A stretch of DNA of 47,301 nucleotides, from the NCBI RefSeq assembly GCF_014359565.1, contig NZ_JACIZD010000003.1:276357-323657 (forward strand), given 5' to 3'. Made by a program: the position numbers and the translations under genes. The stretch is from Immundisolibacter sp. GTDB taxonomy: Bacteria; Pseudomonadota; Gammaproteobacteria; Immundisolibacterales; Immundisolibacteraceae. This document shows positions 34,671 to 38,920 of this stretch, piece by piece. The first letter of the stretch is position 1. The number at the start of each line of letters is the position of its first letter. The notes under the pieces are model-generated. The model was not told the DNA's origin and did not search any database. It saw only the letters and a list, made by a program, of their open reading frames with translations.

Positions 34671-34857
34671 TATGGCGGGCTTGTCCCACTCCATCGGGTG
34701 GCGCTTGCCGTGAAAGTAGATGTATATTTTTCACTCACTGAGCATACGCACGCTCGGTACGCAGGCTGTAGTGCTTCAGCCGGGTAAGATACCAAAGCTG
34801 ATCGAGCAGCCGGGGCACCGAAGGATCGCCAGGAGCCTGTTCATGTGTAGGCCCAGC

Positions 34858-34958
34858 TTATCGGACATGGTGAATGTTATGAATCATGAGGTTGGCACAC
34901 GACGCCCAGGTTACCGGACGTGTCCGATAATTTATTTACCCTGATAAATTCCGGATAA
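34858..34958. promoter_or_regulatory. Cluster of TTATCGGACA-like inverted repeats
   Basis: TTATCGGACA at 34858-34867 recurs in TTACCGGACGTGTCCGATAA (34911-34930, a 20-bp near-palindrome with mirrored half-sites), and TTCCGGATAA lies at 34949-34958. AATTTAT/ATAAATT form a further 7-bp inverted repeat around TTACCCTG. They sit just before the HTH/GIY-YIG gene. They may be operators of its promoter or a recombinase site. The rest of the 34614-34987 gap shows no gene. Confidence 0.4.
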
Positions 34959-34964
34959 CTCATG

Positions 34965-35660
34965 TTAGCCACAGTGCAGGAGGGCAGATGACGGATCGAA
35001 GCGATATCTTGCGGTACTTCATTGACGAGTACTTTGAGGGAGACGCAAAGAAAGCCTCTGAAGCGACAGGCTATTCCGTCGCTCAGTTTAAGGCTTGGAT
35101 TTCGAGGCAGCGTTTGCCCCGGAAGAGTACCATTGAGTACTTAGTCCACTGCGTCTTTACGCCTGAATTCAGGGTAATTGTCGAGTTTGGTGAGTTCAAT
35201 CAATCTGAGCCGATCTTAACCCAGCTTCGGAGATTACTGAAAGGTCACGAAGAGCGACCGGGTATTTATGCTTTTTATGACTCCATGGCGAACCTCGTAT
35301 ATATAGGAAAAGCAACCAAACTTCTACGTGAATGTGACAATGCAATTCGGCGCGAGGTGCACGTCCGTTTTCCGAATGACGTAAAAAACAAGCCAGAGAA
35401 TAGAGCGGAAGTTGTACGTTACATCTCTGCTTACGATGTTGGAAAATCTAATTGGGTAGATTACCCAAAGCATGTTGAATCGCTCATACTTCGAATTTCA
35501 AAGCCTGTTTTAAACAAGAATATAGGCCAGTTAGAAAAGGCGTATGTGATTCCAGAGGATGGGTAAGGGTGTTTGCAAATTCAGGCAGTGGCCTAGCTCG
35601 GCGAAATATTCGGCACCCCGGAGGCGTAAAAATGACGTCTTTTGGGGTATCTATTTATAG
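34965..35660 (+). mobile_element. Candidate integron cassette 1 (HTH/GIY-YIG gene)
   Basis: It is bounded by core-like sites GTTAGCC (34964-34970) and GTTAGGT (35660-35666). The gene starts 18 bases after the first site. The expected attC at its 3' end (35570-35660) is poorly conserved: a palindromic GC-rich stretch is present but the predicted GGCTAAC core is not. Assignment therefore depends on the better cassette 2. Confidence 0.4.
34988..35566 (+). CDS. HTH and GIY-YIG nuclease-superfamily protein
   Basis: A 192-residue protein, AT-richer than the genes around the island. Residues about 1-50 look like a helix-turn-helix (DAKKASEATGYSVAQFKAWI). Residues about 90-175 contain the GIY-YIG signature PGIYAFYDSMANLVYIGKATKLL, followed by the conserved Arg-containing helix and a late Glu (HVESLILRISKPVLN) as expected for the catalytic metal site. 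Such proteins cut or nick DNA. The coupling of a DNA-binding HTH with a small GIY-YIG domain suggests a defence, mobile-element or regulator-nuclease role. It is preceded by AGGAGGG. The palindrome cluster just upstream might be its binding site. Function is not known. Confidence 0.8.
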   Translation: MTDRSDILRYFIDEYFEGDAKKASEATGYSVAQFKAWISRQRLPRKSTIEYLVHCVFTPEFRVIVEFGEFNQSEPILTQLRRLLKGHEERPGIYAFYDSMANLVYIGKATKLLRECDNAIRREVHVRFPNDVKNKPENRAEVVRYISAYDVGKSNWVDYPKHVESLILRISKPVLNKNIGQLEKAYVIPEDG

Positions 35661-36085
35661 TTAGGTGCTTATGCCTAGTCAGTCTTTTTTCTTGGTTTAT
35701 GTCGGTTCCGAAATTGAGTCTTCGGAGTTCGCCCACCTTCATCGCTTCCTTCATCCCGGCTCGCAGCATGAGAGTGGGTGGAAAGCCTTTGTTTGTTCCG
35801 AGGTGACGCCAAGCAACCACCCGGGATTTGTTCTCCTTCAAGCGAAGGACTTTGCGGGAAAGGGCACAAAAAGCCTCCATCTACGCTATAGCCTTGTTGC
35901 GTCAATACTTGAATATCAGTTTCAAAAAAACCCAATTGGGTTTATTGGCCCAGAGAATTTCCTATAACAATCAAAGGTTCGTCGTCCATGTTCATTCGCC
36001 ACTCACCTAACATGGCGGTCAAGCGGACACCGGAAAGCTGCATTTCCCGGCACCCTCGCTCCGCCCGGTGCCACTTACCTTTATG
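35661..36085 (+). mobile_element. Integron-type gene cassette 2 with complete attC
   Basis: The cassette begins TTAGGT (core GTTAGGT at 35660-35666) and its 3' attC (36005-36091) begins with ACCTAAC, the exact complement of its own 5' core, which is the defining property of a cassette. It contains one 98-codon gene filling most of its length. The second core GTTGGCT starts the next unit. No integrase gene is in the window. Confidence 0.65.
35671..35967 (+). CDS. Small cassette-encoded protein, unknown
   Basis: A 98-residue protein beginning MPSQSFFLVYVGSEIESSEF; no family is recognised. It has mixed alpha/beta composition, no signal peptide and no membrane segment. It starts 11 bases after the cassette core site and stops 38 bases before the attC, the normal cassette layout. 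A GTG two codons upstream (35665) is an alternative start. The base composition differs from the neighbouring chromosome. Confidence 0.6.
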   Translation: MPSQSFFLVYVGSEIESSEFAHLHRFLHPGSQHESGWKAFVCSEVTPSNHPGFVLLQAKDFAGKGTKSLHLRYSLVASILEYQFQKNPIGFIGPENFL

Positions 36086-36091
36086 TTGGCT
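36005..36091 (+). other. attC recombination site (87 bp)
   Basis: R'' core ACCTAAC (36005-36011) and R' core GTTGGCT (36085-36091) enclose an imperfect stem: GGTCAAGCGGACACCGG (36017-36033) against CCGGTGCCACTTACC (36065-36079), pairing except for two extra unpaired bases on the left arm and one mismatch. Unpaired extrahelical bases on one arm are the known recognition feature of attC sites folded as single strands. Confidence 0.7.
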
Positions 36092-36102
36092 TTCTTCAGG
36101 AC

Positions 36103-37437
36103 ATGCTCATGCTCGATGAAATTCTTGTGGATAGTGTTACTACCGTACCAGCGGAGAACCACCCGCCCTTTGCAACGAAAATTGACTATGATGCGGAGAG
36201 CAAGAGGCGGGAAGCAGTCATAAAGAAGTGGGCTGCTCTTCCCAAAGATGATCGAGCCAACTTTAACGATAAGCTGGAGCAATATCTCAGCAGTGAAGGA
36301 GTTCTCAACCTAAAAGACCCGTCGGTCGTTTCCTCGAAGAACTACTATCTCCTTCAGCGTGAGATCGCCGCCCGCGTCTCCGCTGAAAACCTCTTTGAGC
36401 CGCTTCCGATCGACGAACTTCATTTTGAAAACGCCTTGATGGAGTTGATAGAAAACATCGAGAACGTCGCTCACATCAAGGAACTCTATAAATTGCGCAA
36501 GCGCACGGTGGGCAGCACGAAGAACGCTGGTATTACCACGGAAGACGCCGGGCGACTCAAGAACTGCATGAGGCAGGGGCGCGAACTCTATTTATCCGGG
36601 AGGTTTGGCTCCTTAATGGTCAAACCCTTGAACTTCTTTTACTCGCTGACAGCGTACGCATATGCAGTCGTCATTCTCAATAATCCAATCCGGTACTCGC
36701 TGGACGGGCTCCCGGGTTCGCATGGAATTAACTATCTTCCGGATGGAGTGAAGACGCAATTTGGTGGAGATATGCCCCATGGGACATTCAGTGACCTGTT
36801 CGCCGCCTTCCCAACAATGTCATTGCGCAACCATCAGTTTGAAATTACGCAGGACTGTAAAGACTCCTTGCTCACTTTCTACAAGGTCAGAACTACAGTA
36901 AGTCCCGGTACCTTGCTCAGCATGATTCCTGAGCTTCGCGATTACTACAAGCTAATTACAGGCCGAAACAGTAGAGCGCACCCATTGGAGTTATCCATTA
37001 CCAACGATACTCGATCCGTTAAGTGGGAGTTTCAAATCGGGGATGGCGAGTTCCGCCCACCGCTGGGCGGCGTTGAAAAAGCATTCGACGGTTTTAATTT
37101 TTCCGAGCGGTACGGCAAGATCATCGTAGCGGTCCCCGGGTCGGACGCACATCGTATTAAGGCATGTATCTACTCGGACGCTAGAGGGAGGTTTTGGTAT
37201 ATCGAGAACCCGTTCTTCCCAATCATCTTGCCAGAGGTTTGCGTTCATTTCCTACTGAGCAATTCGTTTAGCAACATCATGCGCTACTCTCCAGACCGAT
37301 GGGGGAATATCCTCCTCAACGAAGCAGACTCAAACGTTTCGTTGATTACGAGAAAGTATTTGTCTGCCTTTGAAAATAAGTTTCCCTTTCTCGTTCTTCG
37401 GTCAATATCGAGATTCCAGCCCTATGTAGCGGCATAA
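36103..37437 (+). CDS. YaaC-like protein
   Basis: A 444-residue soluble protein. The second half resembles the YaaC-like family as I know it: NFFYSLTAYAYAVVILNNP, HGINYLPDG, a central basic segment, then VCVHFLLSNSFSNIMRYSPDRWGNIL and FPFLVLRSISRFQPY. The YaaC family is uncharacterised but appears in variable genomic islands. Residues 1-100 form a separate helical region. Start: ATG 36103, or ATG 36109 two codons later. It lies 12 bases after the GTTGGCT core, like a third cassette whose own attC is missing; a 34-bp repeat begins 20 bases after its stop. Composition is AT-richer than the chromosome, indicating transfer. Confidence 0.65.
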   Translation: MLMLDEILVDSVTTVPAENHPPFATKIDYDAESKRREAVIKKWAALPKDDRANFNDKLEQYLSSEGVLNLKDPSVVSSKNYYLLQREIAARVSAENLFEPLPIDELHFENALMELIENIENVAHIKELYKLRKRTVGSTKNAGITTEDAGRLKNCMRQGRELYLSGRFGSLMVKPLNFFYSLTAYAYAVVILNNPIRYSLDGLPGSHGINYLPDGVKTQFGGDMPHGTFSDLFAAFPTMSLRNHQFEITQDCKDSLLTFYKVRTTVSPGTLLSMIPELRDYYKLITGRNSRAHPLELSITNDTRSVKWEFQIGDGEFRPPLGGVEKAFDGFNFSERYGKIIVAVPGSDAHRIKACIYSDARGRFWYIENPFFPIILPEVCVHFLLSNSFSNIMRYSPDRWGNILLNEADSNVSLITRKYLSAFENKFPFLVLRSISRFQPYVAA

Positions 37438-37456
37438 AAAAAGAAATCGTATGAAT

Positions 37457-37490
37457 CGTAGCCTGGATGGAGCGCAGCGGAATCCGGGAT
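37457..37490 (+). repeat. 34-bp CGTAGCCTGGATG repeat, copy A
   Basis: CGTAGCCTGGATG-GAGCGCAGCGGAATCCGGGAT. It is shared with copies at 37860-37893, 38675-38708 and (inverted) 38038-38069. It lies directly after the YaaC-like gene, where the third cassette's attC would be expected. Confidence 0.85.
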
Positions 37491-37585
37491 GATCGGGCGG
37501 CCAGGCCGCGCCAAGCGCCAAAATTGATTGTTTCGTTCGATTCGACCAGACTTCACTCATTCTCCTGCTGACTGCCGGGTGACCC

Positions 37586-37837
37586 ATGCAGACCTTTATC
37601 GCCAACGAAGCCAAAACCCGCTTCGGTGAATTGCTGGACCGCGTGCAGCGTGCGCCGGTGCAGGTGACGCGGCACAACCGCGTGGTCGGGGTGATGGTGA
37701 ACGCCGAGGATTACGAGGCCATGCGCCGGTTTTATGCCGACCGCCTGCGCAAAACGCTGCACGATACGGCCGACGAAGCCGCAGCGGCCGGGTTGACCGA
37801 GGAAAAGCTGGCGCAGTTGCTGGCCGACGAAAGCTGA
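37586..37837 (+). CDS. Phd/YefM-type antitoxin, apparently without toxin
   Basis: An 83-residue protein with the Phd/YefM DNA-binding N-terminal domain: IANEAKTRFGELLDRVQ...VQVTRHNRVVGVMVNAEDYEAM. The C-terminal helical tail would normally bind a RelE- or Doc-type toxin. No toxin gene follows: the stop at 37837 is 22 bp before a repeat and a transposase remnant. It may be an orphan regulator, or the toxin was lost when the repeat-bound segment arrived. GC content is chromosome-like, unlike the cassettes upstream. Confidence 0.85.
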   Translation: MQTFIANEAKTRFGELLDRVQRAPVQVTRHNRVVGVMVNAEDYEAMRRFYADRLRKTLHDTADEAAAAGLTEEKLAQLLADES

Positions 37838-37859
37838 TCAGTCATGCTGGTGCAAAAAT

Positions 37860-37893
37860 CGTAGCCTGGATGCAGCGTAGCGGAATCCGGGAT
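37860..37893 (+). repeat. 34-bp repeat, copy B
   Basis: CGTAGCCTGGATG-CAGCGTAGCGGAATCCGGGAT. With the inverted copy C it flanks the transposase remnant at 37899-38036, six bases from the remnant's stop codon. Confidence 0.85.
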
Positions 37894-37898
37894 TCCCA

Positions 37899-38036
37899 TC
37901 ACTCCCCGAACTGCCCTTCGTCCACGCCGACGGCACAGTCGGGCGGAACACTGCCCTGCCGGATGTAGCGGTGCAGGGGGACCACCGCCAATCCACGGAT
38001 CGCTGTGCCAGGCCGTGCTTCACCATGAGCAAGGAA
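37899..38036 (-). pseudogene. REP-associated tyrosine transposase remnant 1
   Basis: Reading on the minus strand, MVKHGLAQRSVDWRWS is followed, after a one-base deletion, by LHRYIRQGSVPPDCAVGV and DEGQFGE then TGA. This is the C-terminal end of a RAYT (Y1-type) transposase; the part with the catalytic HuH and Tyr motifs is gone. It is almost identical to the second remnant at 38657-38920. It is enclosed by inverted copies B and C of the 34-bp repeat, the arrangement expected for a RAYT and its target palindromes. Confidence 0.75.
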
Positions 38037-38037
38037 G

Positions 38038-38069
38038 TCCCGGATTCCGCTGCGCTGCATCCTGGCTAC
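38038..38069 (-). repeat. 34-bp repeat, copy C (inverted)
   Basis: It reads TCCCGGATTCCGCTGCGCTG..CATCCTGGCTAC on the plus strand, the inverted form of copies A, B and D. It closes the transposase remnant 1 segment. Confidence 0.85.
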
Positions 38070-38152
38070 ACGCTGGCGTTACCCGAGTCGTCACCGGCGG
38101 TTTCAGGGGTGTTTAGGCAGGTGACCGGCCAGGCCCGCCCTTCGCGCACCGA

Positions 38153-38623
38153 TCAATCGTCACGCCGCTTTTTGAGGACGCTGATACTTCCGTCGGCTTC
38201 CAGATAGGCCCGATGCATTTCCTCTTGCCGGCAATCGGCCTCGCGCAGCGACTTGTGCATGTCCGCTTCGCTGATGCGATGTCGCCGCAGTACGTCGGTC
38301 AGGATGGTGCCATCTTTTCCAATCAGCACGGCTGTGCCTTCGACGAGCTGCTCGAACTTGCGACTACGGGAGGCAACGAATCCCACGACCGCGTTCAGCA
38401 GCACAAGTGTTGCGGCGGCAATGAGCCCGCCCGGCACGGAGCTGTCATCCCCGGTAAGTCCGGGGCTCACAGATTCGCTCAGCAGCATGATGACGAGAAG
38501 ATCGAACGGCGTGAGCTGGCCAAGGGAGCGTTTTCCCGATAGGCGCATCAGCAGCAACAGAATCAAGTAGATCGCCGTGGCCCGTATTGCAGGCTCCCAC
38601 CAAGGGATGCTGATGTCCAACAT
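38153..38623 (-). CDS. DUF421 (YetF-type) membrane protein
   Basis: A 156-residue protein with two to three N-terminal TM helices (AIRATAIYLILLLLMRLSG, LTPFDLLVIMLLSESVSPG, LIAAATLVLLNAVVGFVAS) and a cytoplasmic domain with VLIGKDGTILTDVLRRHRIS. The motif GKRSLGQLTPFDLL is typical of DUF421/YetF proteins, whose function is not established. ATG 38623 has GAGG six bases upstream; TTG 38635 is a weaker choice. The final part (EADGSISVLKKRR) completes the family domain, so the gene looks intact. Confidence 0.88.
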   Translation of the reverse strand: MLDISIPWWEPAIRATAIYLILLLLMRLSGKRSLGQLTPFDLLVIMLLSESVSPGLTGDDSSVPGGLIAAATLVLLNAVVGFVASRSRKFEQLVEGTAVLIGKDGTILTDVLRRHRISEADMHKSLREADCRQEEMHRAYLEADGSISVLKKRRDD

Positions 38624-38656
38624 TGGACGCCTCAATCAAGCGGCAGGAGCATTATT

Positions 38657-38920
38657 TTAGCCCGCGAAAGAAATCGTACCCTGGATGCAGCGCAGCGGAA
38701 TCCGGGATCCCCACCACGCCCCGAACGGCCCGTCGTCCACGCCGACGGCACAGTCGGGCGGAACAATGCCCTGCCGGATGTATCTGTGCAGGGAGGACCA
38801 CGCCCAATCCACGGGTTGCTGCGCCAGGCCGTGCTTCACTGGGTTGAAGTGCATGTAGTCCGCGTGCTGGGTGAAATCCGTGCCGTCCCGAATCAGGTGC
38901 TCCCAGAACCTGCCCGGCAC
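38657..38920 (-). pseudogene. REP-associated tyrosine transposase remnant 2
   Basis: An open frame of 87 codons, PGRFWEHLIRDGTDFTQHAD, then YMHFNPVKHGLAQQPVDWAW, SSLHRYIRQGIVPPDCAVGV. RFWEHxIRD and DYxHxNPVKHG are C-terminal signatures of RAYT transposases (Y1_Tnp fold). The catalytic N-terminal half is missing; upstream minus-strand sequence is unrelated. The frame runs on into repeat copy D, which encodes its last residues, so the natural stop is lost. It is a remnant. Confidence 0.75.
38675..38708 (+). repeat. 34-bp repeat, copy D
   Basis: CGTACCCTGGATG-CAGCGCAGCGGAATCCGGGAT, overlapping the 3' end of transposase remnant 2. No inverted partner is seen on the other side of this remnant. 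Confidence 0.85.

Follow-up and report, generated by a model that had tools for sequence, protein, structure and literature searches.

The standard order of an integron places intI beside attI and divergent from the cassettes, and clusters of cassettes that lack an integrase are common and usually taken as degraded integrons. Cassette arrays and attC sites without intI (CALIN and SALIN) are frequent in bacterial genomes and are held to be mobilisable in trans (PMC12444791, PMC9024848, PMC9229058). In Xanthomonas, the sedentary chromosomal integron has its intI next to ilvD, and CALINs recur at seven chromosomal loci (PMC12444791). Of all intI genes about one third are pseudogenes, and one in five integron-carrying bacteria has more than one intI (PMC2426708). 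Cassettes of the delta-attI type work in assays (PMC12901181), and common software is blind to attI sites outside class 1 (PMC9024848).

Anatomy of the locus

The region 34694-37452 of the window (the whole stretch of 47,301 nucleotides of Immundisolibacter sp. DNA that was analysed) is very probably a decayed integron which belongs to a dispersed family of platforms in the genus and whose cassettes were exchanged by IntI at attI. From left to right it comprises a leftward 5' remnant of intI, attI, two cassettes with attC, of which one attC is degenerate and one good, and a final cassette without attC (Table 1). The first-pass annotation had described the locus as an integrase-less cluster of attC sites with three core-like 7-mers, GTTAGCC at 34964, GTTAGGT at 35660 and GTTGGCT at 36085. 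All three are present, the cassettes and attC are real and a working integrase is lacking, but the first core is that of attI and a truncated intI lies upstream; the assertion that no integrase is nearby is thus mistaken, as the remnant (34694-34844, minus strand) adjoins the array.

Table 1. Features of the decayed integron and its right-hand border in the window
Feature	Position	Strand	Details and evidence
intI pseudogene, first ~42 codons, stop codon and frameshift	34694..34844	-	tblastn; paralogous units
Leader and attI, ending at core GTTAGCC (34964-34970)	34845..34970	+	Unit alignment; consensus
Cassette 1	34964..35659	+	CDS 34988-35566, HTH-like N-terminus and divergent GIY-YIG nuclease domain
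Degenerate attC of cassette 1, R'' GCCTAGC, R' GTTAGGT	35591..35666	+	81% identity to L084:8005-8087
Cassette 2	35660..36084	+	CDS about 35671-35967, unknown protein of ~98-100 aa; core/R'' 7/7
attC of cassette 2	36005..36091	+	Covariance model, 32.1 bits; bottom-strand fold
Cassette 3 without its attC	36085..37452	+	CDS 36103-37437, YaaC-like protein, 444 aa, PF14175
REP-type repeat at the expected place of the third attC	37453..37489	+	Fuzzy repeat search

Intact IntI proteins match the minus strand at 34824-34741 (68%) and 34724-34689 (83%) with an E-value of 1.3e-8 in tblastn, and the translation reads PSVPRLLDQL..LRTERAYA followed by a stop, a frameshift and then YIYFHGKRHPME. The DNA of the remnant is 81-85% identical to that of paralogous units in which TIGR02249 or tblastn recognises the intI part. 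The remnant is divergent from the cassettes and 120 bp away from the core at 34964, which is taken as the attI core because intI adjoins it in the standard divergent order; homology to the paralogous units ends at this very core (34964-34970). Since intI remnant and attI lie directly left of the array, the locus represents a decayed whole integron and not a bare attC cluster, and with only N-terminal remnants of IntI present it is not a complete, functional one. That the cassettes entered a secondary chromosomal site (attG) which never had its own attI or intI, as in a plain CALIN, is highly improbable. Such an origin would be in line with the absence of an intact intI from the genome and with its other attC sites, which are isolated and have no intI remnant, but it is contradicted at the window locus by the divergent remnant and attI directly upstream and by paralogs in the same order; it may still apply to loci that consist of attC only, for example C4:57543. 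The locus also differs from a CALIN as defined by at least two attC and no intI nearby, having one scored attC and the adjoining remnant. Software blind to the remnant would report a lone attC that has no integrase, i.e. a SALIN.

The attC of cassette 2 was evaluated with a covariance model (R1) that was trained on 26 attC sites adjoining intact intI in other Gammaproteobacteria and includes no sites from the studied genus; in the model alignment 89% of cells are paired and covariation exceeds every shuffle. This independent model, a check that the first-pass annotation had itself proposed, matches 36005-36091 with 32.1 bits (E 1.3e-4 in 248 kb), and in an unfiltered scan of 3.1 kb the site has an E-value of 1.6e-6 and is the only credible match; it is the sole scored attC in the window. 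The site has the paired R and L boxes and the extrahelical base of a gene cassette, its bottom strand folding into an R-box/L-box hairpin with a bulged base at -16.0 kcal/mol vs -13.4 for the top strand. Shuffled sequences are nearly as stable (z -1.1), and it is therefore the covariance score and not the energy that supports the site. A strict GTTRRRY/RYYYAAC search missed it because its R' is GTTGGCT, and a relaxed pattern followed by the covariance model was used instead. The complementary core pair described in the first-pass annotation is exact: R'' ACCTAAC at 36005 complements the first core of its own cassette, GTTAGGT at 35660, in 7/7 positions, as do the starts of the seven tested cassettes outside the window with their own R''. 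Cassette 1 matches its own R'' in only 5/7 positions, and its degenerate attC, which receives no score from the attC covariance model, resembles its counterpart in the sister genome, which adjoins a different unit (L084, Table 1).

The third attC is missing and, as had been proposed, a repeat stands in its place, starting about 15 bp past the stop codon of the yaaC-like gene. Further copies of this REP-type repeat are found at 37856, 38038 and 38672 by fuzzy repeat search. The region 37453-38920 contains four REP-type repeats, which surround an orphan phd/yefM antitoxin gene along with a RAYT-like fragment; in the counterpart of this region in the sister genome the repeat occurs eight times and the antitoxin gene is also duplicated in truncated form. 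Only 6 of 28 loci have this REP type, and the idea that it marks the end of every array was dropped. A scan of the window against Rfam at gathering thresholds gave no match.

The three cassette genes are AT-richer than their surroundings, as had been noted, with a GC content of 0.447, 0.472 and 0.493 vs 0.665 for the window. The protein of cassette 1 has a PGIY...YIG motif that was read in the sequence, and its matches to Pfam GIY-YIG (E 0.099) and a UvrC-type NCBIfam (E 0.003) are both weak. The cassette 2 protein matches no family above cut-off, and the cassette 3 protein matches PF14175 (YaaC-like) with an E-value of 6.8e-26. Among 369 sampled gammaproteobacterial genomes the YaaC-like and GIY-YIG proteins find a match only in their own genome, a plasmid collection yielded no relatives of the three proteins or of the attC DNA, and the three genes were not found elsewhere in the fixed order that would speak for an arrangement other than cassettes. 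Accessory or defence genes typically lie downstream of a tyrosine integrase, and on a viral contig (L039:1-3633) a YaaC relative of 63% identity is encoded just downstream of a tyrosine-integrase-like gene; no attC accompanies it and the other two cassette genes are absent. The cassette genes of the window may serve phage defence.

A dispersed family of platforms

The genome under study (G000) is a draft assembly with 27 contigs, whereas the sister genome (G001) is one closed contig. A search of the rest of G000, which the first-pass annotation had recommended, yielded no intact intI but further units of intI remnant and attI as well as attC sites. The 280-bp unit recurs at C2, C6, C12, C13 and C21 with 81-85% identity, and two further subtypes are found at C1 and C14, so that intI-remnant and attI units occupy eight loci in G000, the window included, and six in G001. 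C26 and the 11.8-kb position of C21 have attI of the second subtype but lack intI, and there are about ten related capture sites around the G000 chromosome. More attI-B-like sites without an intI remnant are located at L148:103-128 and L140:5809-5834. No IntI (TIGR02249) over cut-off is found in the family's seven genomes, G000 and G001 included, and an IntI over cut-off is encoded in 103 of 274 sampled Gammaproteobacteria. Other family members have longer yet partial pieces of intI, about 122 codons in G002 and about 100 in G006.

An alignment of the eight group-A units, five from G000 and three from G001, shows mean pairwise identities of about 0.84-0.85 inside the unit, 0.49 on its left side and 0.28 immediately past the core, where a different gene follows each attI. 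The attI consensus of the units reads ...CCGACAAATGTCGGATAACTCACGTTRG. Conservation is 0.846 for attI vs 0.839 for the pseudogene part (permutation p 0.39), and as attI is no better conserved than a pseudogene there is no sign of platforms still under selection. A scan of the attI/intI part with a promoter consensus, aimed at the cassette promoter Pc, detected no promoter facing the cassettes, with counts no higher than in shuffles.

The left edges of the units in the window and at C2, C6, C12, C13 and C1 fall within ~15 bp of each other at intI codon 41-46 despite different flanks, C6 and C12 have 21 further bp in common beyond this edge, and the tree of the units is a star. The window copy is moreover missing at the orthologous site of G001, where a different insert of ~2 kb with an IS transposase gene is found. 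All this could suggest that the unit is a transposing element with a fixed left end which spreads the capture site, and yet no terminal repeats or target duplication were recognised at the units, other copies reach codon 54-82, group B has the same edge with a different attI sequence and there is no clean empty site, which makes transposition unlikely. Within the units the identity of orthologs (85-86%) is scarcely higher than that of paralogs (80-90%), and together with the star tree this implies that the units dispersed near the time of speciation or that conversion took place; gene conversion or independent decay of the units is conceivable.

Cassette content of orthologous platforms in two sister species

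Judged by flanks that are about 94-95% identical, five platforms of G000 have orthologs in G001 (C6=G1c, C13=G1b, C21=G1a, C1=G1f, C14=G1e), unit and chromosomal flank being common to both species at these five loci. Further common loci are C26=L146, C4:57543=L150 and C9=L147. The end of C9 (L142) carries an attC near the 3' end of ilvD, beside which the Xanthomonas integron also lies (PMC12444791). At the C2 locus a group-A unit in G000 (L026:4384-4402) has a group-B unit as its counterpart in the G001 ortholog (L053:11588-12057). Cassettes were compared at core level for three platforms, C6, C13 and C1, and there the ortholog alignments stop at the attI core, within 0-4 bp (L027 6246/L052 4828; L029 592/L051 4987; L031 4894/L085 8640). 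These are the ends of local alignments, global identity left and right of the core being uninformative since random pairs reach 0.73. No cassette is common to the compared arrays of the two species; matches are confined to IS and short repeat copies, apart from one distant (31%) protein pair at different loci. The platforms contain an NsnA-like DUF262 and HEPN pair, HicA, an aquaporin, a methyl-directed restriction enzyme and unknowns, contents which are typical of integrons. At C2 of G000 (L026:4706-10412) the first cassette pair, NsnA-like DUF262 and HEPN-family, lies beside a type IIG restriction enzyme-methyltransferase, and the segment forms a small island of defence genes at an attI platform. 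The contig ends of C6, C12 and C21 (L027, L028, L030) lie inside an IS30-like element in or near the first cassette, and these arrays are broken by the assembly.

The truncation of intI is common to both species and the cassettes are not, and hence exchange probably took place after the local intI was destroyed, which would imply that an integrase worked in trans or has disappeared since. In the proposed mechanism cassettes would be swapped at the attI sites of the platforms by IntI-catalysed attI x attC recombination. The integrase would have served the truncated platforms in trans once the two species had separated, and it may have come from other strains, from a plasmid or from an intact copy that no longer exists. 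An assembly gap of G000, where several platforms stop at contig ends by the IS30-like element, could conceal an intact intI, and G001, which is closed, could have had a plasmid. The sequences directly show how the platforms are built, that they have paralogs and orthologs, that homology stops at the core and that neither cassettes in common nor an intact intI are found; the identity and source of the integrase and any present movement of cassettes are inferred. The arrays might instead have been exchanged as whole alleles by homologous recombination between strains, with an integrase active only in other strains or in the distant past. Flanks of this similarity would make such an exchange easy and neither genome has intI; several alignments stop at the core and not at ragged points, however, and the alleles would still require cassette insertions made by an integrase after the truncation of intI, so that this route appears rather unlikely. 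Returning to exchange by IntI at attI, a tentative extension is that the platforms form a distributed integron, in which a truncated intI-attI unit copied to about ten chromosomal sites would be refilled independently at each site by one integrase in trans, lost or located elsewhere, leaving sister species that share the sites but no cassette.

The platforms provide a natural experiment, namely several sites where the cassettes changed completely after the integrase had been broken. They make testable both the origin of CALINs and whether integrases act in trans on natural chromosomal attI sites. Such platforms escape common software because attI sites outside class 1 go undetected (PMC9024848).

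Comparison with known systems

Pseudogenes of intI, CALINs, SALINs and mobilisation in trans are already known as parts. The open-access literature yielded no description of intI-remnant/attI platforms that form a conserved family and whose cassettes have turned over completely, and such an integrase-less family appears, as far as found, to be new. Like the sedentary chromosomal integron of Xanthomonas, from which intI is often lost, the locus has a divergent intI, attI and mostly single-gene, AT-rich cassettes with attC (PMC12444791); unlike it, only a remnant of intI is present, the genome has many platforms instead of one and the arrays hold one to three cassettes. With CALIN and SALIN the platforms share attC sites without a functional integrase, and Xanthomonas CALINs too are found at conserved chromosomal places, but the platforms retain an attI and an intI remnant of their own, and orthologous occupied sites have different contents in the two species. 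Broken intI genes, several per genome, are also reminiscent of the intI pseudogenes and multiple intI described earlier (PMC2426708), whereas here all copies found are 5' remnants, several of which have nearly one end point and are conserved in two species.
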